Of a DNA stretch of 64,000 nucleotides, positions 37,599-63,153 are shown piece after piece; the stretch's first letter is position 1, and the number at the start of each line of letters is the position of its first letter. The stretch spans positions 682,001-746,000 of the forward strand of contig NZ_CP091976.1 of the NCBI RefSeq assembly GCF_029016285.1, read 5' to 3'. Position numbers and translations under genes: made by a program. The DNA is from Vibrio sp. DW001. Lineage in GTDB: Bacteria; Pseudomonadota; Gammaproteobacteria; Enterobacterales; Vibrionaceae. The notes beneath the pieces are model-generated. The model was not told the origin of the DNA. It did no database searches and was given only the letters and a program-made list of their open reading frames with translations.

Positions 37599-37671
37599 CT
37601 TCTACTTCCTTTTAGATAGCTCAACTCTTCTATCTGATTGATAGGGTTAATGTTTGACGGCGTCCGCTTTT

Positions 37672-38868
37672 TTACGTCACCTGAATTCGGGTTATGTCAT
37701 TTTGATGGTAGTGGAAATAGAGTGCCAACGCACATACACCATAGCCAACAAGAAACAGTGGCAGCATTATTGACCCGATCTGTTCGACTAATGCACCAAC
37801 GAGTTGCGCCAACAATGCACCTAATAGTAATTGTATAAAACCGAGCAGTCCCGAAGCCGACGCTCGGTTTTCCTCTACCGACGCGATAGATAATGACTGT
37901 AAATGGGGCTGACTCAATCCACGACCAAAGGTAAACAAGGCCATAGTGAGGAATAAGTTTTCATAACTAATATCAAATAACGTAAAAGATACCAGCATCA
38001 ACAGCCCACCAATGAGTGACAGGCTATGACCAATAATTACTGAGCTAGAATGAGATAGTCGTGTTGATAGTTGCGCACTCGTAAAGCTGCCGACCATAAA
38101 TCCAAAGGCAACAAAAAGAAACCAAAAGCCATATTGGGTTAGGCTCTCACCTAAGGTTGCGCTTACTATAAAAGGAGCGCAGGTAACAAATGAGAAAAAC
38201 CCACAGGCGATAAGCGTACTAGACAAAGTAAGGCTGATATAGGCTTGATTCTGTACCAGTTTTTTGTAGGTACCGATAAAAGAAGTTGTTTTCCCTAAAC
38301 TCATTTCGTCGCTTATTGGTTTCGGATATTGGAAAAACACACCTACCCAAACCGCTGTCGCCATTAACATTGGCAGATAGAATACAGAATGCCAGCCGAT
38401 AAATTCTGACACAACGCCACCGACAGTCGGTGCTATCGCTTGTGAAACAGCGACACCCATGGTGACATAACTCAGTTTCTCAACCGCTTTTTCTGAAGGG
38501 TACATGTCCACTAAGATACTACGTGCGAGCATCATACCAATGCAACCACCAGCGGCTTGCATCACTCGGCTAAGCAATATCAGCTCAACAGAACTAGCAA
38601 ATACCCCTACTAAGCCACCAGCAACGTGAAGCCCGAATCCCCACAACAGTAAATTACGTTTTCCATAACGGTCCGCCAATGGGCCACCAAACAACTGACC
38701 GATAGCAAGCGTGGCTAAATAGGCGGTAAAACTGAGTTGGATTACGCTGTTAGAGGCACCAAATTCTTTTGCCAGAATAGGCATAATTGGGGCAACAATA
38801 TTAAGAGCCACAGGACTAACCATCGCCATCAGTATCAAGAAATAGGTAAGCTGAGTATCCTTATTCAT
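37672..38868 (-). CDS. MFS transporter, Bcr/CflA-type
   Basis: A 398-residue inner-membrane protein with about 12 transmembrane helices. The motif-A loop reads GPLADRYGKRNLLLWG between helices 2 and 3, and helix 5 has the motif-C-like TVGGVVSEFIGWHSVF, which is typical of drug/proton antiporters of the DHA1 family (Bcr/CflA). It sits inside the HPA operon between the GlcG-like and gabD genes. It may export toxic pathway intermediates or serve uptake; the antiporter motif favours export. It is not the HpaX-type symporter. Confidence 0.85.
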   Translation of the reverse strand: MNKDTQLTYFLILMAMVSPVALNIVAPIMPILAKEFGASNSVIQLSFTAYLATLAIGQLFGGPLADRYGKRNLLLWGFGLHVAGGLVGVFASSVELILLSRVMQAAGGCIGMMLARSILVDMYPSEKAVEKLSYVTMGVAVSQAIAPTVGGVVSEFIGWHSVFYLPMLMATAVWVGVFFQYPKPISDEMSLGKTTSFIGTYKKLVQNQAYISLTLSSTLIACGFFSFVTCAPFIVSATLGESLTQYGFWFLFVAFGFMVGSFTSAQLSTRLSHSSSVIIGHSLSLIGGLLMLVSFTLFDISYENLFLTMALFTFGRGLSQPHLQSLSIASVEENRASASGLLGFIQLLLGALLAQLVGALVEQIGSIMLPLFLVGYGVCALALYFHYHQNDITRIQVT

Positions 38869-38873
38869 GTCGG

Positions 38874-39308
38874 TTACTTTGCATGTTCAGAAAGTGTTAG
38901 AAAAGCCTCAATTCCCGCGTTAGCACATTCTACATCTTGGTTTTCACTCGCACCAGAAACACCAATGGCACCCATGGTTTCACCTTGAAACTGCACTGGA
39001 ATACCCCCACCAAACAAGACCATTCTGTCTTGCTGAGAAAGACTACTTAATAGATGGGGATTCCCCTCTAAACGCCGAGTCCAATCTTGTGTGGAAAAAC
39101 CAAAGCTTACCGCCGTAAACGCTTTGTTAACGGAGATATCAATACAGGGAAATGCGGCGTTGTTGATTCTAAGTTGAGCAAGAGGGTAACCATGACGATC
39201 GAGAACCGATACGCATACCTTAAGTTGACGCGCTTCCGCATACTCTATCGCGGCAAGCGCGATCAGATGTGCGGTTCGCCAACTCAGGCTCGTATCAGTC
39301 ACGACCAT
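38874..39308 (-). CDS. GlcG/HbpS-like (DUF336) protein
   Basis: A 144-residue single-domain protein of the GlcG/HbpS family: an N-terminal helix (TAHLIALAAIEYAEARQ), strands VCVSVLDRHGYPLAQLR, and the glycine-rich end GGIPVQFQGETMGAIGVSGAS. No signal peptide is present. Known members bind haem, cobalamin or small molecules and often lie beside oxidases or dioxygenases of small organic acids, although the function is poorly defined. Here it is between hpaD and an MFS gene, 6 bp and 5 bp from each, so it is clearly part of the operon. Confidence 0.75.
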   Translation of the reverse strand: MVVTDTSLSWRTAHLIALAAIEYAEARQLKVCVSVLDRHGYPLAQLRINNAAFPCIDISVNKAFTAVSFGFSTQDWTRRLEGNPHLLSSLSQQDRMVLFGGGIPVQFQGETMGAIGVSGASENQDVECANAGIEAFLTLSEHAK

Positions 39309-39313
39309 ACTTA

Positions 39314-40165
39314 TTACACCTCAAACAGAACGTTGACTTGTCCGGTTCCTGAGCTTGGGAAGTACTCACTCACTAAACGACCTTTGCCTTCGTATTTGTC
39401 CCACCCTAGGGCACCAAACAGCATTGCTGTATCGTGCATACCACCTTCGCCATCGCATTTCGCGGCGTAATCTGGAAGCATTTTCAAGAAGGTTTCAATA
39501 TCGCCGTTCTGCCACATATCCAGTACATGAAGATCCATCTGACGGTTAAATTCGCTAGAGATAGTAAACGTACCGTTGTTGGCAACGTAGTCTTCATTGG
39601 CCCAGATCTTGTGTGAAAGTGAGCCGGAAGCAAGCAGCATAACTTTACTGTCACTAGCTTCAATCGCTTCACGAATAGCTTCACCCAATCGACGAGATGA
39701 TTCAAGACTATGAACCGTGCACATGGCGGCAACAGAAACCACTTTGAACTGCTTATCCTCGTTCATAAAACGCATCGGAACTAAGGTCCCGTACTCTAAC
39801 GCTAACGAATCGACTTGATGAGAAAGAGTAAAGACACCCTTCTCTGTCGCGATGTCTGCAATTAGATCACCCAGTTCAGAGTTGCCTTCGTATTCGTAAG
39901 GCAGGTTTTGAATAAAATGTGGAAATTCATTACTGGTGAATAGTCCTTCAAAATGCGTATTTGAATTAATATGGTATCCCGCATTAACTAACCAGTGCGT
40001 ATCCAGCACAACCACCGTATCGACACCTTTCTCACGCGCGATTCTTGAAATCTCTCTGTGTCCATCAATCGCGTGCTGACGCAAGCCGAAAATTCTGCCA
40101 GGTTGCTCAGACATAATCATTGTCGGAACGTGTGTAATTTTTGCAGCAACAACAAGTTCGCCCAT
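39314..40165 (-). CDS. hpaD: 3,4-dihydroxyphenylacetate 2,3-dioxygenase
   Basis: A 283-residue class III (LigB-type) extradiol dioxygenase, matching E. coli HpaD/HpcB in length. It cleaves homoprotocatechuate with oxygen to 5-carboxymethyl-2-hydroxymuconic semialdehyde using Fe(II). Recognisable parts are the N-terminal KITHVPTMIMSE segment (His12 is a likely metal ligand), DTVVVLDTHWL, and LLASGSLSHKIW with a conserved histidine. It is cytoplasmic and starts 108 bp after hpaF. Confidence 0.92.
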   Translation of the reverse strand: MGELVVAAKITHVPTMIMSEQPGRIFGLRQHAIDGHREISRIAREKGVDTVVVLDTHWLVNAGYHINSNTHFEGLFTSNEFPHFIQNLPYEYEGNSELGDLIADIATEKGVFTLSHQVDSLALEYGTLVPMRFMNEDKQFKVVSVAAMCTVHSLESSRRLGEAIREAIEASDSKVMLLASGSLSHKIWANEDYVANNGTFTISSEFNRQMDLHVLDMWQNGDIETFLKMLPDYAAKCDGEGGMHDTAMLFGALGWDKYEGKGRLVSEYFPSSGTGQVNVLFEV

Positions 40166-40273
40166 CTTGTGTATCTCCTTGCTTTGGGTAACAAAAGCGC
40201 TCCGATTAAAATAGTAGAGTTGGCTTCATTACGTTCTTATTCAGTTTCAGTTTTTAATGCTTACAAGCTCAGC

Positions 40274-40666
40274 TCAACTCGCTAAGTTTTTAAGCTTCTC
40301 GTGTATATTATTTTTTTTATAATTCAGTGTCGGATGCAGCTCGGTCATTTCGAAACCGATGCTTAGATAGCGTTCATCAAATATCGGCTGTAGACATGCA
40401 GTGAAGGCGGTAAAGATAGTGTCTCCGGCTTCTTTCAATGTCTCCATTGATCGTCCACTACCGACCTTCACCGTAAGATGAATAAACCCATTTTCTGGAT
40501 CACCTTCTGCGACTCGAAAGTCATCGGCTTTATATGCCCGGCTACGAATGCCCCCTAACGGAAACACGCCCGTTGATACAGCCGTTTCGTTGAGCACTTT
40601 CAATAGCTCTGGCAGGTCCAACTCCTGTTCAATATTGGCGGAGTATTCCACGACAAAATGGGGCAT
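40274..40666 (-). CDS. hpaF: 5-carboxymethyl-2-hydroxymuconate isomerase
   Basis: A 130-residue tautomerase-superfamily enzyme that isomerises 5-carboxymethyl-2-hydroxymuconate. This family uses the N-terminal proline left after Met removal, and that fixes the start: the ATG at 40666 gives MPHFVVEYS and has AAAGGAAG 6 nt upstream. The upstream-extended frame to 40693 would bury the proline. GIRSRAY and FIHLTVKVGSGRS are typical of the family. It lies between hpaE and hpaD. Confidence 0.93.
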   Translation of the reverse strand: MPHFVVEYSANIEQELDLPELLKVLNETAVSTGVFPLGGIRSRAYKADDFRVAEGDPENGFIHLTVKVGSGRSMETLKEAGDTIFTAFTACLQPIFDERYLSIGFEMTELHPTLNYKKNNIHEKLKNLAS

Positions 40667-40717
40667 AGTTCTTCCTTTGATATTCGCTAACACTGGTGTC
40701 TGTATTATAATGAAAGA

Positions 40718-42241
40718 TTAACGCCCTAATACTGGCACGCTGTGGGTATCAAACGCGATACAGACGTTTTTCGTTTCCATGTAGAAATCGAAACTCCAAT
40801 CACCACCATCACGACCAATACCCGACATTTTCACACCACCAAATGGTGACGGAAGGTTACGGTTATTTTCAGAGTTAATCCAAACCATACCCGATTCAAC
40901 ATTATGGGCCATACGCATTGAACAGCCGGTGTTGCTTGTCCAAATGTACGCAGCCAAGCCATAGTTAGTATCGTTAGCAATGGCGACAGCGTCTGCTTCA
41001 GTTTCGAACTCGATGGTGGTAAGCACGGGCCCGAAGATCTCTTCGCGAGCGATACGCATCGAATTATCCGCATCAGTGAAGAGTGTTGGTGTTAGATAGT
41101 TACCATTGCCAAGCTCAGTAATACGTTTTCCACCTACAGCAACGGTTGCGCCATCTTCAATCGCAGCATCAACATAGCTTAATACTTTTTCATAATGAGA
41201 TGTATGTACCAACGGACCCACTTCTGTCACGGGGTCAAGCGGATGACCAACCTTAAGGTTCGCAACACGCACTTTCAATGCTGTAAGGAATTTGTCCTTA
41301 ATACCTGACTGGATAAGTAGACGACTTGAGCTCGTACAACGCTGACCGTTTAAGCTGTAAATCATAAAGACAACAGCATCAAGCGCTCGATCAAAATCGG
41401 CATCATCAAAGACAATAACGGGATTTTTTCCACCTAATTCAAAGTGTGCACGCTTCAACGTATCTGCCGCTTGTTTCTGGATCATAGAACCTGTAACGGT
41501 TTCTCCGACAAAAGCAATAGCCTTGATATCTGGATGCTGTGTCAGCTCTTTACCCGCCACTTCTCCAAATCCGTTAATCATATTCCATACGCCCGGTGGC
41601 AAGCCGGCTTCGTCTGCACATTCTGCAAGAATCGCGGCTGAAAGCGGGCTAAATTCTGCTGGCTTGTGGACGACCGTACAACCCGAAGCTAGAGCGGGTG
41701 CAATCTTCCAAGTCGACAACATAAATGGCGTATTCCAAGGCGTAATAACACCAACCGGGCCAATAGGCGACTTAACCGTAAAGTTAGTGTGTTCTTCCTG
41801 TTGCAAAGCGAGTCCGTTACGTGCTTCAGGTGCTTTATCAGCAAAGAAACGAAAATTAGCCGCGCCGCGAACGGCCGCTTGACGCATAAAGCGAATTGGC
41901 TGACCACAGTCTGAAGACTCTACTAATGCGATCTCTTCAGCGCGTGCTTCAATTTTGTCGGCTAGTTTATGCAAAATCGCTTTACGTTTTGCTCCACTCA
42001 TTGCTCCCCACTCTTTTTGAGCTGACGCCGCCGCTTTACAAGCTGCATCCACATCGGCAACGCTCGCTTTAACGACCTTACCTAATGATTCACTGTTCAC
42101 TGGTGAACCGTTATCGAACGTCTCACCTTCACTGCCTAGTGTCCATTTCCCATTAATATAATGGCCTAGTGTATTCTCTTTGAAACGCGCGAGGTACGTT
42201 GTGGCTTTGTCTAAATTGTTTTGAAGATCCTGACTCATCAT
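40718..42241 (-). CDS. hpaE: 5-carboxymethyl-2-hydroxymuconate semialdehyde dehydrogenase
   Basis: A 507-residue NAD-dependent aldehyde dehydrogenase. The catalytic cysteine is C302 in NGQRCTSSSR, the base is E268 in FELGGKNPV, and the Rossmann segment FVGETVTGSMI is intact. It oxidises the ring-cleavage product of HpaD to the tricarboxylate precursor. It starts at tandem ATGs overlapping the hpaG2 stop by 4 bp, so the two are coupled. Context separates it from the gabD-like dehydrogenase at the operon's end. Confidence 0.93.
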   Translation of the reverse strand: MMSQDLQNNLDKATTYLARFKENTLGHYINGKWTLGSEGETFDNGSPVNSESLGKVVKASVADVDAACKAAASAQKEWGAMSGAKRKAILHKLADKIEARAEEIALVESSDCGQPIRFMRQAAVRGAANFRFFADKAPEARNGLALQQEEHTNFTVKSPIGPVGVITPWNTPFMLSTWKIAPALASGCTVVHKPAEFSPLSAAILAECADEAGLPPGVWNMINGFGEVAGKELTQHPDIKAIAFVGETVTGSMIQKQAADTLKRAHFELGGKNPVIVFDDADFDRALDAVVFMIYSLNGQRCTSSSRLLIQSGIKDKFLTALKVRVANLKVGHPLDPVTEVGPLVHTSHYEKVLSYVDAAIEDGATVAVGGKRITELGNGNYLTPTLFTDADNSMRIAREEIFGPVLTTIEFETEADAVAIANDTNYGLAAYIWTSNTGCSMRMAHNVESGMVWINSENNRNLPSPFGGVKMSGIGRDGGDWSFDFYMETKNVCIAFDTHSVPVLGR

Positions 42242-43041
42242 TTCGTCCCTTTTGAGTTGTTGTCGCCAGTAATTCGCGATGAATAGAATTCTTGTTCAGA
42301 AACCATATGGGTCTCTAACGAACCTACTTTTTCAATCGAGCAAACGACGACATCGCCCGGCTGCATATCTTTTAGCCCTTTCGGTGTTCCTGTTGCAATC
42401 ATGTCGCCTGGTTGAAGCGTCATAATGGCACTGAGATACTCAATCAAGAACGGCACATCGAAGATCATGTCAGCCGTGCTGCCTTCCTGAGTCAGTTCAC
42501 CATTTACTCGTGTTTCTATCTTCAGGTTGCTGATATCGCCAACATCCTCTTTATCAATTATCCACGGGCCGATAGGGCAAAGTGAATCACGACTCTTCAC
42601 ACGAAGATTGGGGCGATAGTAGTTTTCCAAGTAGTCTCGAATTGCAAAGTCATTACATACGGTGTAACCCTTGACGTAATCCATCGCGTCTTTACGATCG
42701 ATATTTTTGCCTTCTTTACCAATCACCGCGACCAACTCACACTCATAGTGCATAAATTCGATATCATCTGGGCGATACGAGTCTTGCTTGTGGCCCGTTA
42801 ACGTATTGGTTCCTTTAATGAAAACCAATGGCTCGGTAGGGGGAGCGAACGCGAGTTCTGAAGCATGATCCGCATAGTTAAGACCAAGCGCAAAAATGGT
42901 ACCCGGATTTTGAACAGGTGATAGCCATTGAACCTCACTTTCTGGAAGTAATTGTCCCGACTCCGATTGAATCTCGCCCGCTTGATTCACGGTTACATTT
43001 AAAATCTCTTCTTGAAAGAGTATACGTGCTCTTTTCATCAT
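42238..43041 (-). CDS. hpaG2: HpaG C-terminal-type subunit (isomerase/decarboxylase)
   Basis: A 267-residue fumarylacetoacetate-hydrolase-fold protein corresponding to the C-terminal half of the E. coli bifunctional HpaG. The metal-binding motif HYECELVAVIG is intact (both glutamates), with GLNYADHASE before it and FDVPFLIEYLS ... PGDMIATGTPKG after it. Together with HpaG1 it decarboxylates 5-oxopent-3-ene-1,2,5-tricarboxylate and isomerises the product. Tandem ATGs follow a GGGAGAG site; the first overlaps the hpaG1 stop by one base. Confidence 0.9.
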   Translation of the reverse strand: MMKRARILFQEEILNVTVNQAGEIQSESGQLLPESEVQWLSPVQNPGTIFALGLNYADHASELAFAPPTEPLVFIKGTNTLTGHKQDSYRPDDIEFMHYECELVAVIGKEGKNIDRKDAMDYVKGYTVCNDFAIRDYLENYYRPNLRVKSRDSLCPIGPWIIDKEDVGDISNLKIETRVNGELTQEGSTADMIFDVPFLIEYLSAIMTLQPGDMIATGTPKGLKDMQPGDVVVCSIEKVGSLETHMVSEQEFYSSRITGDNNSKGTK

Positions 43042-43688
43042 TACTCTCCCGTCAAAGTATTATTAAGTTGCTGTAATCCGCTCATACTTGAGCTGACTTG
43101 GTCACCCACCTGAACCGCTATACGGTCACCGGGAAATCCGACGGCAATAACGTCGCCAACATTTAACGTCATAATAGTGGAAATGAGATGAATCAACTGT
43201 TCGATACTGCGATGGAAGTGAGAAACGCTCAGCACACTTTTTTCGTCACCGTTAACACTTGTTGTAACGGTTAAATCAGCCAATGAAGCGATATCTGAAA
43301 GTGGCACTGGATTTTGAGCGATTGGCGCCGATCCATCTAAACACTTACCTTTGATATCAGGGCGGTAGTAGCTTTGCTCTGGCAAAGAGAAGTCGTGTGT
43401 AAGGGTTAATCCACTGACATAATCCAGTGCATCGGTTTCACTTACGCGACAACACGTTTTACCTATTACCAACGCAATACTCGCGCCAACAACCATTGAA
43501 TCACCAACATAGCTGACTTTGGCTTCATCCGATGACCATGTATTTCTTGTTTTAAAATAAAGTACCGGCTGAGTCGGTGGCTTTACATAAGGCTTTTCAC
43601 TAAAAGTGCCGTTGAGTTCATTTAACTGCTTGGCATCATTAAGTGCCACGCAGACAAACTTCTCTTTGACTAACTGATTTGAATTCAT
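43041..43688 (-). CDS. hpaG1: HpaG N-terminal-type subunit (isomerase/decarboxylase)
   Basis: A 215-residue protein equivalent to the N-terminal half of E. coli HpaG, here a separate gene as in some other genera. The ATG at 43688 is chosen because GAAGGA lies 6 nt upstream; the longer frame to 43730 would overlap hpaI. The fold is clear (PPTQPVLYFKTRNTW, VVGASIALVIGK, YYRPDIKGKCLDGSAP), but where HpaG2 has ECE for metal binding this subunit reads GAS, so its own metal site seems lost. It likely acts as a partner of HpaG2. Confidence 0.88.
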   Translation of the reverse strand: MNSNQLVKEKFVCVALNDAKQLNELNGTFSEKPYVKPPTQPVLYFKTRNTWSSDEAKVSYVGDSMVVGASIALVIGKTCCRVSETDALDYVSGLTLTHDFSLPEQSYYRPDIKGKCLDGSAPIAQNPVPLSDIASLADLTVTTSVNGDEKSVLSVSHFHRSIEQLIHLISTIMTLNVGDVIAVGFPGDRIAVQVGDQVSSSMSGLQQLNNTLTGE

Positions 43689-43719
43689 CTGAAGTCCTTC
43701 TCTCATTATTTTAAGCAAA

Positions 43720-44550
43720 CTAATAGCCACTAGATGGGTTAGTTTGTTCAGTTTTCTGTTCTGGGTTCTTTACTCTATTCACTAATTGCTCAGCCGATAA
43801 GCGCAGTAATAACGTGTCGACACCAACGCCGACAAATTTAGTTCCACTTGCGGCAAATTGTTGAGCTTTTTCGATGTTGAGGCACAAGATTCCCGATGCT
43901 TTGCCACTGTTGTGGATAACGTCCATTCCCCACTGGATTTTTTCAACCACTTCAGGATGGTCGGGGTTACCTACATAGCCCATTGCACCGGAAAGATCAG
44001 ACGGTCCTATAAAAACACCATCAACACCATCCACCTGCACTATTTCTTCTAGGTTATCCATTGCTTCTAAAGTCTCTACTTGAACAATGAGGCAAATTTC
44101 GTCATTTGCGTTCTGCAAGTATTGAGGAACTTTGTTCCATTTCGCCGCACGAGCTAGTGAGCTTCCCATCCCTCTTATACCAAGAGGAGGATAACGGACA
44201 GCAGAGACCAACTCTTTTGCCTGTTCTGCTGTATTCACCATAGGGATAAGCAAGGTTTGAGCACCTACATCAAGAAGCTTCTTGATTTTGGCTACACTGC
44301 CCTCATCTGGACGTACGATAGGAGAAACATCATAAGGTGCTAATGCCTGTAGATGATGCAATATATCTTTGAGTTCAAAGGGCGCGTGTTCACCGTCTAT
44401 AAGTAGCCAATCAAAACCAGCACCGGCACAGATCTCGGCACAACTTGTATCAGGTAAACCTAACCATAAACCCCACAAGGCTTCTTCCCCTTGCAGAGCG
44501 CGTTTAAATTTGTTTATCGGTAACGCAGACACCGGATTCAATGTAGACAT
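43720..44550 (-). CDS. hpaI: 4-hydroxy-2-oxoheptanedioate aldolase
   Basis: A 276-residue class II aldolase of the HpcH/HpaI family that splits 4-hydroxy-2-oxoheptane-1,7-dioate into pyruvate and succinic semialdehyde. H55 (DGEHAPF), R80 (IVRPDEG), E159 (QVETLEA) and D185 (GPSDLSG) line up with the E. coli catalytic and metal-binding residues H45, R70, E149 and D175, all offset by 10. It carries about ten extra N-terminal residues. It lies 9 bp after hpaH. Confidence 0.95.
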   Translation of the reverse strand: MSTLNPVSALPINKFKRALQGEEALWGLWLGLPDTSCAEICAGAGFDWLLIDGEHAPFELKDILHHLQALAPYDVSPIVRPDEGSVAKIKKLLDVGAQTLLIPMVNTAEQAKELVSAVRYPPLGIRGMGSSLARAAKWNKVPQYLQNANDEICLIVQVETLEAMDNLEEIVQVDGVDGVFIGPSDLSGAMGYVGNPDHPEVVEKIQWGMDVIHNSGKASGILCLNIEKAQQFAASGTKFVGVGVDTLLLRLSAEQLVNRVKNPEQKTEQTNPSSGY

Positions 44551-44559
44551 AATTCGCCT

Positions 44560-45363
44560 CTATACAAACTTAACGGATATACCGCCAAGAGGACCAAAAT
44601 CAGCGTGCACAGTATCACCAGCTTTAACAGGTACCGGTCGAGTAAACGAGCCCGATAGAATCACTTGACCCGGCTCCAAGCCTATATCATGAGGTGCGAA
44701 ACGTTTACATACCCAACAGATACCATTCGCTGGATGACCGAGTACACCTGCAGCTAATCCGGTTTCTTCAATTTGGCCATTTAGATAAAGCATTGCTCCG
44801 GCCCAGCGCATATCAAAGTCCATGGGTTTAATTGGACGGCCACCGACAACAATGCCAGCGTTCGCTGCATTGTCAGCAATCGTGTCGTAAACCTTGCGTG
44901 TATAGCCCGATTCTGGGTCAGTACGATGACAACGTGCAGCAATCAATTCTAAGGAAGGAATAATGTAATCTGTTGCGTTTAGCACATCGAATATAGTGAC
45001 ATCTTCGCCTTTCAAAGGATCTTTTAATACAAACGCCAGTTCTACTTCTATACGAGGGTCAAGAAAGTCATCTGCCTTAATTTGTGCACCGTCAGCAAAA
45101 AACATATCGTCTAGCAATACACCATAATCTGGCTGATCAATGTTTACCGCCATTTGCATAGCTCGTGAGGTTAAACCAATCTTGTAACCTTTAACCTTCG
45201 CCCCCTCGCTTTTCTTGCGTTCTACCCATGCGCTCTGTATCGCATAAGCATCTGCCATCGTCATGTCTGGGTGTTCTAGCGTAAATGCGGGGATCTGATA
45301 GCGCTCTTTTTCTGCTACATAAAGTTTATCGGCTGCCGATTGTACTTGTTCTGGAGTGAGCAT
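44560..45363 (-). CDS. hpaH: 2-oxo-hept-3-ene-1,7-dioate hydratase
   Basis: A 267-residue hydratase of the MhpD/HpaH family, first gene of the HPA ring-cleavage operon. Family segments include KGYKIGLTSRAMQ, DYGVLLDDMFF, PRIEVELAFVLK, DNAANAGIVVGGRPIKP and the end GDTVHADFGPLGGISVKFV, all close to E. coli HpaH. The ATG at 45363 has AAGGAAGG 7 nt upstream and is preferred over the ATG-like extension to 45384. The operator pair at 45426-45458 lies 60-95 bp upstream. Confidence 0.95.
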   Translation of the reverse strand: MLTPEQVQSAADKLYVAEKERYQIPAFTLEHPDMTMADAYAIQSAWVERKKSEGAKVKGYKIGLTSRAMQMAVNIDQPDYGVLLDDMFFADGAQIKADDFLDPRIEVELAFVLKDPLKGEDVTIFDVLNATDYIIPSLELIAARCHRTDPESGYTRKVYDTIADNAANAGIVVGGRPIKPMDFDMRWAGAMLYLNGQIEETGLAAGVLGHPANGICWVCKRFAPHDIGLEPGQVILSGSFTRPVPVKAGDTVHADFGPLGGISVKFV

Positions 45364-45425
45364 GGATTGACCTTCCTTTGCCAAATTATTCTGTCTTTAT
45401 CGATTATCTTAAAAAACGACTTTAA

Positions 45426-45543: not shown

Positions 45544-45797
45544 AACTTACTAACAACTTGTTAACGAATATGCGTATTCGATCACATTTTGGTGACATTT
45601 ATCGATTTATGGCAATGTGGTTTTTGTACAATTAAGCAGGACAATTATTTGTTAATGCGTTATTAAACAATCAATTACATAAAATGTACGTTTTTATTAA
45701 CCTATGAAAAGTGCAAGCATCTCCTGTTTTCGTCTATTTCCAATCACCCGTTTCACGTGGAAACTTAACAATATATTAACCAGATGGAATTGAAAAA

Positions 45798-46310
45798 ATG
45801 TCTAATCAACCACTATTTAGAGACGCAATGGCAAACCTAGCAGCAGCTGTTAACATTGTGACCACAGGCGGCGAAGCTGGAACGGTTGGTATTACCGCAA
45901 CCGCCGTTTGTTCTATCACCGATACTCCAGCAACCATTATGGTATGTGTGAATAAAAACAGTGCTTCCAACGATATAATCAAGAGAAATAAGAATCTCTG
46001 TATTAATGTATGTGCAGCGGAACAGCAAAAGATGTCACTCGATTTTGCAGGTATGACAGAGTTAACAATGGAAGAGCGTTTCGCTGACCCAGCATGGTCT
46101 TTAAACGAGGCAAAAGTACCTGTACTCAATGGCTGTCTAACCAGTTTAGAAGGTCATGTTTCAGAAAATTTGGAGATGGGTACACACACAGTTTTCTTTG
46201 TCGAAATTGACAACATTATCGTGAATAAAGACAAAGACGCTTTAGTCTACTTTGCACGTGAATTTAAAACCGTAGAATGCGCGAAAGAAAAAGAAGTTGT
46301 GGCCGCATAA
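45798..46310 (+). CDS. hpaC: HPA 3-monooxygenase, flavin reductase component
   Basis: A 170-residue flavin:NADH reductase of the HpaC family. It supplies reduced flavin to the HPA hydroxylase. It parallels E. coli HpaC throughout: FRDAMANLAAAVNIVTT, GITATAVCSITDTPATIMVCVN, FAGMTELTMEERF and SLEGHVSENLEMGTHTVFFVEI. It has no C-terminal MarR-like domain, unlike the Acinetobacter C1 reductase. It is transcribed away from hpaH and is followed by its own terminator; no oxygenase gene is adjacent. Confidence 0.93.
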   Translation: MSNQPLFRDAMANLAAAVNIVTTGGEAGTVGITATAVCSITDTPATIMVCVNKNSASNDIIKRNKNLCINVCAAEQQKMSLDFAGMTELTMEERFADPAWSLNEAKVPVLNGCLTSLEGHVSENLEMGTHTVFFVEIDNIIVNKDKDALVYFAREFKTVECAKEKEVVAA

Positions 46311-46493: not shown

Positions 46494-46549
46494 TTGACAA
46501 ATAGTTTGACTATCAAATATAATCATATTCAAATACTTTGACAATCAAA
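46494..46549 (+). promoter_or_regulatory. Promoter with two MarR operators for the metal exporter
   Basis: Consensus -35 TTGACA (46494-46499) and -10 TATAAT (46518-46523) are 18 bp apart. The palindrome TTTGACTATCAAA (46505-46517) fills the spacer and TTTGACAATCAAA (46537-46549) covers the leader; their centres are 32 bp apart. An approximate third copy overlaps the -35. The MarR gene that follows the exporter is the obvious candidate to bind here. Confidence 0.75.
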
Positions 46550-54741: not shown

Positions 54742-56040
54742 CTAATACATCAAACTGGGCAATAGCAGTGCAATAGATGGGAACAGCACAATAATTGCTA
54801 ATCTCACCATATCCGCAACCCAAAAAGGTAAAATACCTCTAAAGATGGTGCCTGTACTGATGTCTTTTACTAACCCTGAGAGAACAAATACATTCAACCC
54901 AACAGGAGGCGTAATCAGACTGATTTCTGTCACTACCACAACAACGATACCAAACCATATTGGATCAAACCCAAGCTCAACAACAACCGGGAAGAAGATT
55001 GGCACCGTAAGCAGCATCATTGACATACTTTCAAATACACAGCCCAAGATAATATAGATGAGCAGGATAATCCCCATCGCCACTATCGGAGACACATTTC
55101 CGACTTGGATCAACTCGATCAACGCGGTTGGTAAACCAGCACGGTTTACGAAATTAGACAGTATTAATGCACTGATAACGACAGCAAAGAGTGACGCCGA
55201 CGTTTTAGCTGTATCAACTAGAATGTCTCTTAATATGTCGTAACTCAGTTTTCTTCGATAAAGTGCTAAAAAGAAAGCACCTGAAGCACCGATACCTGCC
55301 GCCTCTGTAGGCGTAAATACACCTGCGTAGATACCACCCATAACCAAGACAAAAAGTAATAACGTAGAAAAAATGCCCTTTAATGCCGTCAATCGTTCTT
55401 TCCAGTCTGAACGTTCACCCGGTGGTGCACTTTCTGGTGAGCGATAAACGACCCAACGAACCGTAAGCAGGTAAAGTGAAATACCTAGTAAGCCAGGAAG
55501 AAATCCCGCCGCAAATAATTCACGTATGCTACTTTCGGTCAGAAGCCCATAGATAACCAGCATGACACTTGGTGGTATCAAAATGCCGAGCGTACCGCCA
55601 GCAGCAATTGACGCGGCAGCTAAACTATCTGCATACCCATAGGCTCGCATCGGTGGCATGGCGACTTTAGACATGGTTGCCGATGTGGCTAGGCTAGAAC
55701 CGCAAATGGCTGAAAAGCCGCCGCAAGCAAGTATCGTCGACATGGATAAACCACCGCGACGGTGCCCAACAAACGCATTACAGGCTCTATATAATTCAGC
55801 GGACAAGCCCGCTTTCGTCACAAAGTTCCCCATTAATATAAATAGTGGAATAACCGACAAACCATAATCTTGCCCAGTATCAATGATTCGGCGAGCAGCC
55901 ATAGACATGGCCGCTGTCCAGTTATAGTCATTGATATACCAAAATCCAATAAATCCAACAACCCCCATGGCAAAGGCAAGTGGTAACCTTAAAAACACCA
56001 TGATGATAAGAATGGTAAAACCTACAATGGACTCCATCAT
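54742..56040 (-). CDS. TRAP transporter large permease (DctM)
   Basis: A 432-residue inner-membrane protein of about 12 helices. It has family segments RLPLAFAMGVVGFIG, GGFSAICGSSLATSATMSKVAMPPM, GILIPPSVMLVIYG and EISLITPPVGLNVFV. It performs sodium-driven uptake with DctQ and DctP. Its start overlaps the DctQ stop (ATGA). The TRAP operon lies next to the HPA oxygenase gene and has putative HpaR operators upstream, so uptake of HPA or a related aromatic acid is likely. Confidence 0.92.
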   Translation of the reverse strand: MMESIVGFTILIIMVFLRLPLAFAMGVVGFIGFWYINDYNWTAAMSMAARRIIDTGQDYGLSVIPLFILMGNFVTKAGLSAELYRACNAFVGHRRGGLSMSTILACGGFSAICGSSLATSATMSKVAMPPMRAYGYADSLAAASIAAGGTLGILIPPSVMLVIYGLLTESSIRELFAAGFLPGLLGISLYLLTVRWVVYRSPESAPPGERSDWKERLTALKGIFSTLLLFVLVMGGIYAGVFTPTEAAGIGASGAFFLALYRRKLSYDILRDILVDTAKTSASLFAVVISALILSNFVNRAGLPTALIELIQVGNVSPIVAMGIILLIYIILGCVFESMSMMLLTVPIFFPVVVELGFDPIWFGIVVVVVTEISLITPPVGLNVFVLSGLVKDISTGTIFRGILPFWVADMVRLAIIVLFPSIALLLPSLMY

Positions 56041-56561
56041 TCGCTGCTACTCCTTTCTGATATCGGCGTTCCTGAGCGGAAGAATGGTAATCTGGCCATG
56101 TATACAACGGCATTCATAAAGGTAAGAAAACCACCAGCAAACCCTGTAATTGAGATTAGATAGGTCACGTAACCTAATGGAATTTCTAATATCTCAGATA
56201 CTTCTTCATACTCAAGAGAACGACCCGCTAGTTTCCAATTCATCATCGCGACCAATACCAGCGATACCGCACAAATAAGATTTATTACTGCTTGGCGAAC
56301 GTCAATCCAGCGGTCTGGAAAATAAGCGTCGAGTAGGTCTACGCAAATATTCTCTTCTTTCCAAGACACAAGAGGGAAAGCCATAAAGACCATGACAGCG
56401 AGTAGAACCTCAATCATCTCAGTTGAGCCATCGATCGGTGAGTTTAGAAAATAGCGTCCGAAAACATCGAAAAATGTAATACCCATCATAAGAAACAAGC
56501 TGAGCGCAGCGAGGGTCTCCAACCCTCGCCTTACAGCTATCGAAACATTTTCAGCTATCAT
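56037..56561 (-). CDS. TRAP transporter small permease (DctQ)
   Basis: A 174-residue inner-membrane protein with four hydrophobic helices (TLAALSLFLMMGITFFDVFGRYF first). The motif DVFGRYFLNSPI is typical of DctQ. It joins DctM in the membrane complex. It is 5 bp downstream of dctP and overlaps dctM, so the three genes form one unit. Confidence 0.9.
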   Translation of the reverse strand: MIAENVSIAVRRGLETLAALSLFLMMGITFFDVFGRYFLNSPIDGSTEMIEVLLAVMVFMAFPLVSWKEENICVDLLDAYFPDRWIDVRQAVINLICAVSLVLVAMMNWKLAGRSLEYEEVSEILEIPLGYVTYLISITGFAGGFLTFMNAVVYMARLPFFRSGTPISERSSSE

Positions 56562-56566
56562 AATGA

Positions 56567-57592
56567 TTACAAGCCTTTGTTAATTTGCTCTTGGTAATAA
56601 TCGAATGCTGCAGGGCCATCAACCTTGCGTTTCTTCGCTGTTTTATACCAGTCTTCAATAATAGCGGTTGTCATACCTTTTACTTCTGCTACGAGCTCTG
56701 GCGAAGCATCAGTAAACACATGACCACCTTCTTTAGCTTTGGTATAAGCATTATTATCGTAATCATCCATCATCTTACCGAATAGACGAGAGAGCTTTTC
56801 GCCCGATACGGCTTTAATCGCCTCTTGGTCTTTCTTTGAAACACCTTCTAGTGCATCGCGATTCATGACAATGGCAAAACTTCCGCGGTACAGACCACCT
56901 GGGAACATAAGTGTATTATTGGCAACTTCCGCTAGACGGAAGCTACTTAGAGCTTCTACAGGTAAGTAAGTACCAACAACAACACCTTGAGAAAGCGACT
57001 CATACACCTTAGTGGTAGAGATAAACACTGGCGTGACTTCCATCCCTTTCGCGATGGTAGAAATAACACCACCACCAACTCGGATTTTCTTACCTTTCAG
57101 GTCAGCGAGGGTTTCAACTTTCTCTTTAGTGATAAGCTGACCCGGACCATGCACTCCCATTGCCATAACTTCTACACCACGGTGTTCTTTACCCTGTTTA
57201 AGGTATTTTTCATAGGTGTTCCAATAAGCTTTCGACGCTAACTCAGAGCTCACACCTTCTTTAAAAGTAGGAATTTCCGGAAGCTGTGTTAATTTGAAAC
57301 GTCCAGCTTTATGGCCGTGGAAAATCCACGTTACATCACCAATACCATCCGTAACGACATCAATTTGTGACGGTGGTGGAGCCAAATCATATTCAATTTT
57401 TACGGTTACACGACCTTCTGTCGCTTCTTCAATCCACTTGCCCCACGTTGGCCAAACGACCTTATTTATCCCGTGATTTGGCGAAGCCCAAGAGCTTATT
57501 TTTAGTATTTTCTCTGGTGCGGCATTAGCACCTGTTGAAGCGAGTAACAGTAAACCAGTGCTTACCATAAGGGATATTTTAGATTTGATCAT
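56567..57592 (-). CDS. TRAP transporter solute-binding protein (DctP)
   Basis: A 341-residue periplasmic protein with a signal peptide ending at ANA. The DctP fold shows ILKISSWASPNHGINKVV, a substrate-contact segment LADLKGKKIRVGGG whose R171 corresponds to the arginine that binds the ligand carboxylate in this family, and TKVYESLSQGVVVGTYLPVEAL. Aromatic-rich pocket residues cannot be judged without a model. The ligand is inferred to be 4-hydroxyphenylacetate or a relative from context. Confidence 0.9.
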   Translation of the reverse strand: MIKSKISLMVSTGLLLLASTGANAAPEKILKISSWASPNHGINKVVWPTWGKWIEEATEGRVTVKIEYDLAPPPSQIDVVTDGIGDVTWIFHGHKAGRFKLTQLPEIPTFKEGVSSELASKAYWNTYEKYLKQGKEHRGVEVMAMGVHGPGQLITKEKVETLADLKGKKIRVGGGVISTIAKGMEVTPVFISTTKVYESLSQGVVVGTYLPVEALSSFRLAEVANNTLMFPGGLYRGSFAIVMNRDALEGVSKKDQEAIKAVSGEKLSRLFGKMMDDYDNNAYTKAKEGGHVFTDASPELVAEVKGMTTAIIEDWYKTAKKRKVDGPAAFDYYQEQINKGL

Positions 57593-57865: not shown

Positions 57866-59035
57866 TTACACCATCGTTGGGTCAGGTTCTAATCCCATCA
57901 ACTCTCGCCCTAGAATTTGTGCACAAATATCATAATCAGTGTATGCATGCGCACCTGTCATATGCGAATCACGGAAGAGACGTTGAGCTTCATTGTCGAG
58001 GAACCAACTCATACCACCCATCGCTTCAAACAAACGATCCACAGCTTGAATACACATCTTCACTGCATACGCTTGGTTAGTGCGCCAATAGGTCAATGTC
58101 TCACGAGTTGGATATTCTTTACGCTCACCGTGCTCTTTATGATCTTGCCACGTTTTTTCTAACATGGCGCGAGCCGCAAATATTTGATGAGTCGATTCAG
58201 CAATACGCATGAGAGCTGGTGTCGCTGTCCCTGCATTCGCCCCGGTATAAGCGCGGACACGATTCTTAGTCTTCTCTTTGTAAGCAACCAACATACGCTC
58301 CGCAATGCCTAAGCTTATCGCTGCAAACCCGCAAGCAAAATATGGACGATAAGGGGTGTAGAAAATATCGCTATCTGGGTACAGACCAAAGCCCGCCGAT
58401 TCGCCTTCCATCATGCCTTTCGCTGTCTCGATACGGTGATCAGGAATGAAAACATCTCTCAGTACTAATGTTTTAGTACCGCTCGATTTCATACCAGCGG
58501 CATGCCAGTCATCAGTAATTGTGTATTCATGTCTTGGTACCACACCAAAGCAGTAGACTTTGTTACCATCCGCATCAAGTCGGTGGAATCCGAGGATGGC
58601 CCAGTCAGCATGGTCGCATCCGCTGCTCCAGCGCATGTCTCCGTTAAAGATGACGCCACCTTCTGTGTTTTCTGTTTTACCAAACGGTGCGATACTACTG
58701 CTTGCTGTTGCATCCGGATTCTCTCCCCAAAATTCTTGCTGTGCTTTCTCAGAAAACATCGCCATTTGATGGCTATGCGTGGCAAGTAGGCTTCCGCCCC
58801 ATGCTGTACCACCACATGCACCAGCAATCGCTGCGACACAATCGGTAAACTCAGGTAACGATATTTCAAGGCCACCATATTTTTTAGGTTGAAATGCTCG
58901 GAAAAACTTAATTTCTTTTAAGAGACGGATATTCTCTTCAGGTGGTGTTCGATCCATTTCAGCTTGAGCAGCATTGGCTGCAATCGTAGGTAGGATTTCT
59001 TTGATTTGCTCTAATAATGAGTTTTCACGTTTCAT
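57866..59035 (-). CDS. 4-hydroxyphenylacetate 3-monooxygenase, C2-type oxygenase component
   Basis: A 389-residue flavin-dependent hydroxylase of the acyl-CoA-dehydrogenase fold. It closely follows the Acinetobacter baumannii C2 component: THSHQMAMF, ATASSSIAPFGK, SSGCDHADWAILGF, YTGANAGTATPALMRIAESTHQ and the terminal GRELMGLEPDPTMV. Catalytic residues H120, S146 and H396 of C2 correspond to H87, S113 and H363 here (constant offset 33). It should convert HPA to 3,4-dihydroxyphenylacetate with reduced flavin from HpaC. E. coli instead uses an unrelated-type HpaB. It lacks about 33 N-terminal residues relative to C2. RBS AAGGAAG precedes the ATG. Confidence 0.9.
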   Translation of the reverse strand: MKRENSLLEQIKEILPTIAANAAQAEMDRTPPEENIRLLKEIKFFRAFQPKKYGGLEISLPEFTDCVAAIAGACGGTAWGGSLLATHSHQMAMFSEKAQQEFWGENPDATASSSIAPFGKTENTEGGVIFNGDMRWSSGCDHADWAILGFHRLDADGNKVYCFGVVPRHEYTITDDWHAAGMKSSGTKTLVLRDVFIPDHRIETAKGMMEGESAGFGLYPDSDIFYTPYRPYFACGFAAISLGIAERMLVAYKEKTKNRVRAYTGANAGTATPALMRIAESTHQIFAARAMLEKTWQDHKEHGERKEYPTRETLTYWRTNQAYAVKMCIQAVDRLFEAMGGMSWFLDNEAQRLFRDSHMTGAHAYTDYDICAQILGRELMGLEPDPTMV

Positions 59036-59121: not shown

Positions 59122-59203
59122 TTATCATGTTAAATAAATAGTTATAAAATGGACTAAGCACGACAACAATTGCACTTTTCGCAGAAAGTAATTAACATAT
59201 TAA
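59122..59203. promoter_or_regulatory. Putative HpaR operators between oxygenase and hpaA
   Basis: TTATCATGTTAA (59122-59133) and TTAACATATTAA (59192-59203) are one-mismatch copies of TTAACATGTTAA, centres 70 bp apart, in the divergent gap. One is closer to each gene, so both promoters may be repressed. Confidence 0.6.
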
Positions 59204-59255
59204 CTGTTTTGTACGAAAATGTGATCTGACACGGCAACACGAGTGATTACTAAAC

Positions 59256-60170
59256 GTGAATTGGAGTTACAAGGTGGCTGGAGAAATCCCTAACATTATT
59301 ATTGGGCAAGTTTACGATCAAAAGTACGCAGATGCGGAATTACATTTTGAATACTTGGACAATTTGGCGAGTTTCTTTGGTCGGAATATGCCTGTCCATT
59401 ATCACGACCGATTTTATCAACTGCATATCGTAATGGAAGGAAAAACGCACGTTCATTTGGATGATAAACACTATTCTTTCAAAGGTATTACGTTGTTTTT
59501 CACCCCTCCAGCAGTCCCCCACTCTTTTGTGACCGAAGCGACCTCTACAGGGTATGTCCTCACTATTCAGCAGCAACTGGTTTGGCGACTTTTAGACATG
59601 GAGAGTGGGATAAACAATATTATGGTGGATCAAATGAAGCCATTTTGTACTAGGCTTGAAACAGACAATCCTATATTAGATTTTCTAACTCACCTGAAAA
59701 GAGAAATGGATTCTGGTGCGATGATGAAAGAGCGTGCAACTCAATCTATTTTGCAACTTGTACTTATCGAGGTAATGCGACTTTCTAATAGTTATAAGAG
59801 CGAGACCAGAAACCGCAGTGTGGATGTCACCATTTTTCATAATTTTAACCACCTTGTAGAGAATCAATACCACCAACATTGGGCATTAAGCCAGTACGCA
59901 GACAGTATAGGGATCTCTGTTTCTAGGCTTAATGATATCTGCCGTAGAGTCAGTGGGCTTTCCTCTAAAAAGATCATTATTGATAGGTTGATGCAAGAAG
60001 CAAGACGCCATTTACAGTTCACACCAAAAAGTGTGTCTGAAATAGGTTACGATCTTGGGTTTAGAGATCCAGCCTATTTTGCACGTTTTTTTAGAAAATA
60101 CGCACAGATGACTGCAACGGAGTACCGCAATCATCTTCAAGATTCTGAATTAAAAACAACGTCTACTTAG
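59256..60170 (+). CDS. hpaA: AraC-family activator of HPA degradation
   Basis: A 304-residue activator with an N-terminal cupin-like sensing domain (ASFFGRNMPVHYHDRFYQLHIVMEGKTHVHLDD, TPPAVPHSF) and a C-terminal AraC double helix-turn-helix (SRLNDICRRVSG ... FRDPAYFARFFRKY). The sensor part parallels E. coli HpaA, which activates hpaBC in response to HPA. It is divergent from the oxygenase gene and is followed 34 bp later by the MarR gene. Confidence 0.92.
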   Translation: MNWSYKVAGEIPNIIIGQVYDQKYADAELHFEYLDNLASFFGRNMPVHYHDRFYQLHIVMEGKTHVHLDDKHYSFKGITLFFTPPAVPHSFVTEATSTGYVLTIQQQLVWRLLDMESGINNIMVDQMKPFCTRLETDNPILDFLTHLKREMDSGAMMKERATQSILQLVLIEVMRLSNSYKSETRNRSVDVTIFHNFNHLVENQYHQHWALSQYADSIGISVSRLNDICRRVSGLSSKKIIIDRLMQEARRHLQFTPKSVSEIGYDLGFRDPAYFARFFRKYAQMTATEYRNHLQDSELKTTST

Positions 60171-60204: not shown

Positions 60205-60630
60205 ATGACAAAATTTAAAGACTCTTTGCCACTGCAGTTGATAAAAGCGAGGGACGTAACCCTTGATTACTTTCGTCCTGTACTGTCAGCAAACGACTTA
60301 ACAGTCCAACAATGGCGTGTGATGAGAATCATCTTTGCTTACGGCGAAATAGATTTTACGACTCTCGCGAGTGACTCTTGTATATTAAGCCCCAGTCTAA
60401 CAGGCGTGATCAATCGATTAGAAAAACAAGACTATGTTTGCAAAATAAAATCGGAAGTTGATCAACGACGTGTCAATATTCGTCTCACCGACAAAGCAGA
60501 AAAGTTAGTGAAAAGAGTTCGTATCGATGTCGACAAGCAATATGTGTTATTAAAAGAAAAACTTGGTGACGAGAAATACAATCAGCTTACTGAATTACTT
60601 GAAGAATTAATTGATATCAGAGACAACTAA
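60205..60630 (+). CDS. hpaR: MarR-family repressor HpaR
   Basis: A 141-residue winged-helix repressor. It parallels E. coli HpaR along its length: DYFRPVL, DLTVQQWRVMRII, SCILSPSLTGVINRLEKQ and DQRRVNIRLTDKA. E. coli HpaR represses the meta-cleavage operon and is relieved by HPA and pathway aromatics. It is the best candidate to bind the TTAACATGTTAA set. It is the last gene before deoD on this strand. Confidence 0.92.
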   Translation: MTKFKDSLPLQLIKARDVTLDYFRPVLSANDLTVQQWRVMRIIFAYGEIDFTTLASDSCILSPSLTGVINRLEKQDYVCKIKSEVDQRRVNIRLTDKAEKLVKRVRIDVDKQYVLLKEKLGDEKYNQLTELLEELIDIRDN

Positions 60631-61683: not shown

Positions 61684-63153
61684 GTGTCAAACGGCAAACT
61701 ACCCAAGGATGCAGATGGTTTACAACTCAACTTTTGTAAAACATTGGCGTGTGATAACTTTGGTTTGAGTGATGCAGAACGATACGTTCTACAACACGTA
61801 AATCCTAAGCGTCCAACGATGGTTTGTCGGGAATGTGGTGCTTTCCCCCCCTTACTTAATAATCAAGAAGTCCTAAATGAACTGACGCGTCTACGCCAAG
61901 TTCATAGTGATGGACTTCCTGCTTGTCGCAACAAAGAGTGTTATAACTTTGGTCTTTCCGTTCATACCCATAAAAGCCTCTATCATGCTTTTGGATATAG
62001 CGGTGACAGGCAACGTTATCGCTGCAAAGAGTGCCAATCGACTTTTGTAGACAAGTGGTCCGGCGCGAACAACAAGCTTCAGCTTCAAGAAAATCTGCTC
62101 GGCCTTCTGTTTATGAGCTTTTCAGTCCGAGAAGTGTGCCGTAAATTACAGATTAACCCTAAAACCTTTTATGACCATGTAGACCATATTGCAAGTCGAT
62201 GTCGCCGAAAGTTAGCGATGTTTGATGCTCGCTGGGTAAACCACGAAGAACATTATCACCTCGCTTCGCACTTTATGCCGTTACAACCAAAAAGCAATAA
62301 TGGCGTGCTATGGTTTGCAACAGGCGAGGCCCAATCTGGGTATATTCTTTCCCAGCATATCAACTATTCAACAAATGAAGAGCCTACCGGCTCAGTAGAT
62401 CATGACCCATATAGCTCTGCAGCTCGTTATGTGTCTCGAAGCTATCTATCCGAAGCGAATATAGACATTAAGGTTAAGTCCCACGATCTGCGCGAACGTA
62501 TTGATGAAAAATATCAGGTGATTCTTGCTAGAGGAAATGTGGAAGATCCTATGGGTAACATGACACGTTTTGATTATCCGTCAAAAGGAGCGCTTATTCG
62601 CGCACCCTATACCTCATATGCGCACTTTTTGCATATCCTCGAGATGTGTAATGACGACAAACGTATCTCCATATACCTCCCTCAAGACCCTGTGTTACGC
62701 TCAGCAGCTGTGACTCTATGTTTGAAAAGAATTCAGCGTCAAAATGTTGACCTTATGTACGTCGAAGAGGATGAAAGCTGGGATAACAGTAAAGCTCTTG
62801 AAAAAATTGATATTATTCATATGGGTTGGTGGAAAGATCGTTGGGCCATGTCATTTCAAGAAAACGCAAGTAAGGGAATATGTTACTTAGCAGGTGACAA
62901 CCCTTCGCCCGACCATTGGTTTCACAAGGCCAGCATACGAAACACCAAGTTTTATCAAGATCGTTTCCAAACCTTATTTGGGAGTTTTATTAACGAACCA
63001 CGCAGAAAACTCAGACCCGGTGGCATTCTGCCAATGTTGGACATATTTAGAGCATGGCATAATTTATGCTACCAAGATAAGGATGGGAATACACCAGCTC
63101 AAAGACTTGGATTAACCGATCATCCACTGACTTTAAAGCAGTTGCTTTCCTAA
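61684..63153 (+). CDS. Transposase-derived protein with tandem zinc ribbons
   Basis: A 489-residue protein of unknown function. The first 125 residues hold two similar zinc-ribbon units, each C-x4-C-x-NFG followed later by CxxC (FCKTLACDNFG with VCRECG; ACRNKECYNFG with RCKECQ), related to IS1-type InsA ribbons. A helix-turn-helix follows (SVREVCRKLQINPKTFYDHVD). The rest resembles a transposase core by layout, ending NTPAQRLGLTDHPLTLKQLL. Where the first catalytic Asp is expected I read HLASH and ATGEAQSG, so the acidic triad may be lost. The start is GTG with GAGGGG upstream. No terminal repeats were seen, so a domesticated gene is likely. Confidence 0.65.
   Translation: MSNGKLPKDADGLQLNFCKTLACDNFGLSDAERYVLQHVNPKRPTMVCRECGAFPPLLNNQEVLNELTRLRQVHSDGLPACRNKECYNFGLSVHTHKSLYHAFGYSGDRQRYRCKECQSTFVDKWSGANNKLQLQENLLGLLFMSFSVREVCRKLQINPKTFYDHVDHIASRCRRKLAMFDARWVNHEEHYHLASHFMPLQPKSNNGVLWFATGEAQSGYILSQHINYSTNEEPTGSVDHDPYSSAARYVSRSYLSEANIDIKVKSHDLRERIDEKYQVILARGNVEDPMGNMTRFDYPSKGALIRAPYTSYAHFLHILEMCNDDKRISIYLPQDPVLRSAAVTLCLKRIQRQNVDLMYVEEDESWDNSKALEKIDIIHMGWWKDRWAMSFQENASKGICYLAGDNPSPDHWFHKASIRNTKFYQDRFQTLFGSFINEPRRKLRPGGILPMLDIFRAWHNLCYQDKDGNTPAQRLGLTDHPLTLKQLLS

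Follow-up and report, generated by a model that had tools for sequence, protein, structure and literature searches.

A C2-type oxygenase and an HpaC-family reductase as a probable mixed two-component HPA 3-hydroxylase in Vibrionaceae

HPA 3-hydroxylases usually pair the oxygenase C2 with the reductase C1, or the oxygenase HpaB with the reductase HpaC. Here we describe a departure from this rule in Vibrio sp. DW001, which encodes a C2-type oxygenase and an HpaC-type reductase that, with a probability we put at roughly four in five, form one two-component HPA 3-hydroxylase assembled from two known systems. The genome is complete (5.46 Mb, two contigs), and our analysis began from a 64-kb window at 682001-746000, meaning the whole stretch of DNA analysed, to whose first base all coordinates below refer. 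An earlier note on this DNA had interpreted the two proteins as a mixed C2/HpaC system, and this interpretation gains support from the co-occurrence of the two genes across Vibrionaceae and from a promoter element specific to both. Judged from sequence comparison, the pairing and the shared promoter box suggest that enzyme partners were exchanged in nature.

The oxygenase, the reductase and their genomic setting

The oxygenase gene (57866-59035, minus strand) encodes a 389-aa protein that scores 735.3 bits against the NCBIfam equivalog profile NF045920 (cut-off 650) and whose residues 6-389 align without gaps to the A. baumannii C2 structure 2jbr (638 bits). In this alignment H87, S113 and H363 stand opposite H120, S146 and H396 of the A. 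baumannii protein, and W79, S138, R230 and F233 opposite W112, S171, R263 and F266, so that all seven of the substrate- or flavin-site positions compared are identical. These results bear out the earlier assignment of the protein to the A. baumannii C2 type, H87, S113 and H363 included. We take the A. baumannii equivalents of W79, S138, R230, F233 and H363 to be active-site positions; His120 and Ser146 are named as active-site residues in PMC10816480. Once near-identical entries are set aside, Vibrio algarum provides the best named protein matches (95% for C2 and 88% for HpaC), and NCBI protein names for C2 and for HpaC are already present separately in Vibrio. In two draft genomes, those of Vibrio maritimus CAIM 1455 (L031) and Vibrio mimicus CAIM 602 (L014), the ORFs of C2 and of one further hpa gene are interrupted or truncated, reflecting either sequencing errors or decay.

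The reductase gene (45798-46310, plus strand) encodes a 170-aa flavin reductase that exceeds the cut-off of the HpaC equivalog profile TIGR02296 (228.5 bits versus 205.95) and falls far below that of the C1 model NF045919 (about 60.4-62.1 bits versus 340). It is 54% identical to E. coli HpaC over 153 residues and, in a phylogenetic tree, is placed among HpaC proteins and outside C1. The earlier description of a short E. coli or enterobacterial HpaC-type reductase holds for the family, while an enterobacterial origin is unsupported: the protein does not reach the cut-off of PRK15486, a narrower model of E. coli-type HpaC (198.2 versus 315), and 11 Vibrionaceae HpaCs form one branch of their own beside the enterobacterial and Pseudomonas HpaCs, in a tree that carries a long-branch warning. 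The label "enterobacterial" is too narrow for this protein, and the same separate branch, with the same warning, led us to reject a recent capture of HpaC from enterobacteria. A megablast search returned no plasmid match to the hpaC region. HpaC-like reductases of Proteus mirabilis (L184) and Caballeronia (L188) have no hpaB within 3.5 kb on either side.

Both genes lie among others for HPA catabolism. A meta-cleavage stretch (36147-45384, minus strand) holds hpaH, hpaI, hpaG1, hpaG2, hpaE, hpaF, hpaD and ssadh, with hpaG present as two separate genes; its members were identified over the cut-offs of TIGR02312, TIGR02311, TIGR02305, TIGR02303, TIGR02299, TIGR02298 and TIGR01780, and hpaF by PF02962. 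The TRAP transporter genes dctP, dctQ and dctM (54742-57592, minus strand; PF03480, PF04290 and PF06808) are candidates for HPA uptake. Divergent from C2 is hpaA, encoding an AraC-family activator (59256-60170, plus strand; TIGR02297, 380.2 bits, cut-off 274.65), and hpaR, encoding a MarR-family regulator, lies at 60205-60630 (plus strand; TIGR02337, 164.3 bits, cut-off 121.2). The hpaC and C2 genes stand on opposite strands with 11.6 kb between them, so linkage alone is no proof of their partnership.

Several other features of the window were recorded. The succinate-semialdehyde dehydrogenase gene (36147-37598) sits beside hpa genes here and at most of the Vibrionaceae loci read; PMC12718150 describes the TH operon of A. 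baumannii as the sole version reported to contain this gene. A 12/12 sigma-70 consensus promoter with an 18-base spacer (46494-46523) stands ahead of a cation-efflux-family gene at 46554, and a 489-aa protein with weak similarity to the zinc finger of IS1/IS1595 transposases (61684-63153) comes after a phosphorylase-superfamily gene.

We searched for the standard partners with profiles. The HpaB profile PF03241 found no match in the whole Vibrio genome and none in 150/150 Vibrionaceae genomes, with a positive control that matched in 4/14 genomes; this absence applies to the Vibrio sp. DW001 genome and those 150, not to all named C2 relatives. Likewise, no protein passed the NF045919 cut-off for C1 in the Vibrio genome, where the sole match to the model was HpaC itself, below the cut-off, nor in any of the 150 Vibrionaceae genomes (0/150). 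Within the window, tblastn with E. coli HpaB gave chance matches only (best E 2.3), which dismisses an HpaB remnant and, with the C1 result, agrees with the earlier statement that the window contains no hpaB-like or C1-like gene. An HpaB or a C1 elsewhere in the genome had been named as evidence that would speak against the pairing, and the genome-wide hunt was negative for both; the PF03241, NF045919 and PF01613 searches together exclude a hidden copy of either. PF01613 (Flavin_Reduct) finds two proteins in the genome, HpaC and a 203-aa protein whose gene adjoins a DBI_PRT (cobT-type) gene of the cobalamin pathway; the reductase search covered PF01613 and NF045919, with Fre-type reductases outside its scope. 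The protein closest to C1 among the 150 Vibrionaceae genomes is a full-length one in another Vibrio genome (G058; 230.7 bits versus the cut-off of 340), which also holds a C2-like oxygenase (211 bits versus 650) about 38 kb away on the same contig (L089, L076), and the two are perhaps a further group D system.

Co-occurrence across genomes and comparison with known systems

Among the 150 Vibrionaceae genomes, C2 is over cut-off in six and HpaC in exactly those six. In all five of the C2-positive genomes other than Vibrio sp. DW001, hpaC, hpaR, the TRAP genes and the meta-cleavage genes occur together; C2 falls inside the stretch read in three of them, and in the other two it sits in another part of that record. 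The same pattern emerges from genomes of named C2 relatives: HpaC passes its cut-off in 12/12 Vibrionaceae versus 1/11 non-Vibrionaceae genomes, and C1 in 0/12 versus 10/11. A weaker match of some kind to the HpaC model is present in all 23, and the eleventh non-Vibrionaceae genome, that of Pseudomonas sp. BCA17 (L021), has a locus that matches C1 residues 9-162 only. These whole-genome tests for HpaC, C1 and the promoter box described below covered 23 of the 29 loci fetched with C2 (L008, L016, L018, L024, L025 and L032 were left out).

Gene order separates the clades as well. The 29 loci comprise 15 from Pseudomonas, Chromobacterium, Acinetobacter and Oceanobacter, 13 from Vibrionaceae and one from a Chloroflexi MAG. 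A flavin reductase ORF lies directly behind C2 in 15/15 of the first group, with a length of at least 305 aa in 14 of them and 179 aa in Pseudomonas sp. BCA17, and in 0/13 of the Vibrionaceae loci within the stretch read; nor was one found in the stretch read of the distant Chloroflexi MAG (35% identity). Because the loci were retrieved with a single-protein query, distant C2 clades are under-sampled, and a class-wide survey of 369 genomes, in which the Vibrio sp. DW001 genome alone passed the C2 cut-off, is uninformative on other clades. Together, these data identify the C2-HpaC pairing as a clade trait of Vibrionaceae, including some marine Vibrio and Photobacterium genomes, with the proviso that the co-occurrence of genes residing in one cluster is partly co-inheritance.

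The Vibrio system resembles each of the known hydroxylases in part. It shares with C1-C2 of A. baumannii the oxygenase type, down to the gapless alignment and the identical substrate-site residues, and Acinetobacter and Pseudomonas C2 genes are preceded by a related promoter box; in place of C1, however, which in such systems is normally encoded right behind C2, Vibrio possesses a 170-aa HpaC, no reductase over the NF045919 cut-off anywhere in its genome, and oxygenase and reductase genes in separate transcription units. C1 of A. baumannii, a reductase of 35 kDa, is described as carrying a regulatory domain that binds the substrate (PMC6165268). With HpaB-HpaC of E. coli W, the Vibrio cluster has in common an HpaC-family reductase, hpaA and hpaR, and a related box (before hpaB in hpaBC operons), yet the oxygenase is C2 rather than HpaB, and the reductase sits on its separate Vibrionaceae branch outside the PRK15486 model. 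The group D monooxygenases HsaA-HsaB and XiaF-XiaP likewise join a C2-like oxygenase to a short reductase, HsaB being the short reductase with which HsaA works, but act on other substrates, and Vibrio C2 and HpaC score well below the HsaA (297 versus 450) and HsaB (64 versus 230) cut-offs.

Pseudosulfitobacter pseudonitzschiae (reductase at L181:9233-9751) and Pseudomonas sp. BCA17 (L021:11228-11767) also encode, behind a C2-family oxygenase, a short reductase that lacks the regulatory domain of C1. Unlike Vibrio HpaC, both reductases match the C1 N-terminal domain, and that of Pseudosulfitobacter groups with C1 in the tree; as they match this domain only, the C1 regulatory domain seems to be absent elsewhere too.

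A promoter box before both hydroxylase genes

The C2 and hpaC promoters have two 11-mers in common that are absent from the rest of the 64 kb. One belongs to a direct-repeat box that starts 92 bp before the hpaC ATG (45706-45737, plus strand) and 145 bp before the C2 ATG (59149-59180, minus strand). Counting the window, 14/14 Vibrionaceae loci have its first half, GAAAAGTRCAA, 112-145 bp before C2; ahead of hpaC it stands at 92-133 bp, in the window as in 5/5 relatives. A second half-site follows 21 bp beyond, and we read the two as a likely direct-repeat site of an AraC-family regulator. The other 11-mer, the CRP-like GATCACATTTT (45580-45590, plus strand; 59216-59226, minus strand), was set aside as it is not conserved in the relatives examined.

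The combined box pattern has exactly two matches in the whole Vibrio genome, in the C2 and hpaC promoters, and none in a reversed control. In each of 12/12 further Vibrionaceae genomes it again has two matches and no more, one ahead of C2 and one ahead of hpaC, both oriented with the gene, bringing the total to 13/13 Vibrionaceae C2 genomes (in the draft L005 the two boxes fall on separate contigs). By contrast, it is absent from 11/11 non-Vibrionaceae C2 genomes, and the reversed control gave 0 matches in all 23. Some of the promoters that were matched had been used to define the pattern, and 8/12 hpaC sites were unseen when it was written; for the C2 sites and the remaining hpaC sites, which helped to build it, the informative part is the absence of extra matches. 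The first half alone is not unique, having one more copy in L065, and its one-mismatch matches are at chance level in the window.

A related box extends beyond Vibrionaceae. A relaxed first half, GAAAAGTRCMA, matched at 10-11 of 11 positions no more than 300 bases before hpaB in 7/7 hpaBC operons, compared with 4/380 other stretches of the same loci; L184 and L188 yielded no hpaB, L180, in which hpaB is unannotated, was not scored, and in Klebsiella (L179) the best strict match (9/11) and the best relaxed match (10/11) are at different places. Applied in the same way before C2, it matched in 16/17 C2-C1 operons, the remaining one at 9/11, compared with 20/2024 other stretches. We considered whether the second half of each Vibrio box reveals an ancestry in hpaBC promoters or in C2-C1 promoters and dropped the idea, the differences in mean identity (0.49 versus 0.44 for hpaC boxes, 0.56 versus 0.51 for C2 boxes) being too small to support a claim.

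Because related boxes precede both enterobacterial hpaBC and C2-C1 operons, the shared box is probably the HpaA operator. HpaA is encoded nearby and the box stands before both hydroxylase genes, the arrangement anticipated for an HpaA regulon; moreover, in E. coli W, HpaA is known to activate hpaBC in an HPA-dependent manner (PMC4468947), which, with the position of hpaA divergent from C2, makes it the likely binder. We think it unlikely that a different regulator occupies the box, although the box is also found at Acinetobacter and Pseudomonas C2 loci, where the stretches read contain no HpaA homologue. In the window the box lies between C2 and the divergent hpaA, and a related box precedes hpaBC, the known target of HpaA in E. 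coli W (PMC4468947); both observations favour HpaA.

The box also bears on the source of reduced flavin. C2 might be fed mainly by a housekeeping flavin reductase, of the Fre type or another, leaving HpaC as a leftover or with some other role. XiaF has functioned with the unrelated Fre of E. coli (PMC5481743), LuxAB accepts other reductases (PMC10696468), and Fre-type enzymes, which lie outside the searched profiles, could also supply C2. Nonetheless, HpaC is kept, and C1 absent, in all 12 named Vibrionaceae C2 genomes, and HpaC and C2 have in common a promoter box found nowhere else, which makes this proposal distinctly improbable. Less plausible still, to the point that we give it very little weight, is that C2, assigned to HPA by homology alone, acts on a different phenol. 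The protein that suggests it is encoded on an alphaproteobacterial plasmid of Pseudosulfitobacter (L181:7986-9158) and scores 688 against the C2 cut-off of 650, and its cluster has no annotated hpa genes; another phenol may be its substrate, and NF045920 may therefore cover other substrates. Vibrio C2, however, sits amid the complete set of homoprotocatechuate meta-cleavage genes, with hpaA and hpaR in the same cluster, and its substrate-site residues are those of A. baumannii C2.

Proposed mechanism and significance

We propose that C2 and HpaC, predicted to be encoded as two transcription units of one HPA catabolic cluster, operate as a single hydroxylase. HPA, perhaps entering through the adjacent TRAP transporter, would bind HpaA, which would activate both genes through the same direct-repeat operator. 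HpaC would then reduce free FAD, FMN or riboflavin with NADH, and the reduced flavin would diffuse to C2 to form the C4a-hydroperoxyflavin with which C2 would hydroxylate HPA to homoprotocatechuate, the substrate for HpaD; these last reactions are known for the respective families. Reduced flavin is described as reaching the oxygenase by free diffusion (PMC10816480), C2 as promiscuous for flavin and HpaC as not discriminating between flavins (PMC6165268), and XiaF, a related oxygenase, as working with both E. coli Fre and its own XiaP (PMC5481743). HpaC, unlike C1, is reported to be without allosteric regulation by HPA (PMC6165268). As C1 is missing along with its HPA-sensing regulatory domain, C2 and HpaC are probably coordinated through joint induction and stoichiometry, not through a gated reductase. 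We lean towards a broader reading in which, across Vibrionaceae, an ungated HpaC replaced the gated C1 and control moved from allostery to a two-gene, two-promoter HpaA regulon, a clade-wide swap that free diffusion of reduced flavin would have made possible.

Two-component oxygenases are well known to accept one another's flavin reductases in vitro, and E. coli HpaC has reportedly been used to drive Dsz monooxygenases. In literature titles and the opening lines of abstracts, with most subscription journals and some full texts outside the scope, we found no published C2-HpaC pair. The parts are known; the natural pairing of C2 with HpaC and the promoter element that ties the two together are new. 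The present case looks like a natural and conserved exchange, and its mark in the genomes, joint occurrence together with a promoter element at two sites, allows each oxygenase to be matched with its reductase. The compact marine pair is also a candidate for biocatalysis. Vibrionaceae C2-HpaC breaks the rule by which C2 goes with C1 and HpaB with HpaC, and, as one lineage does without the HPA-gated domain of C1, the purpose of that domain becomes a testable question.
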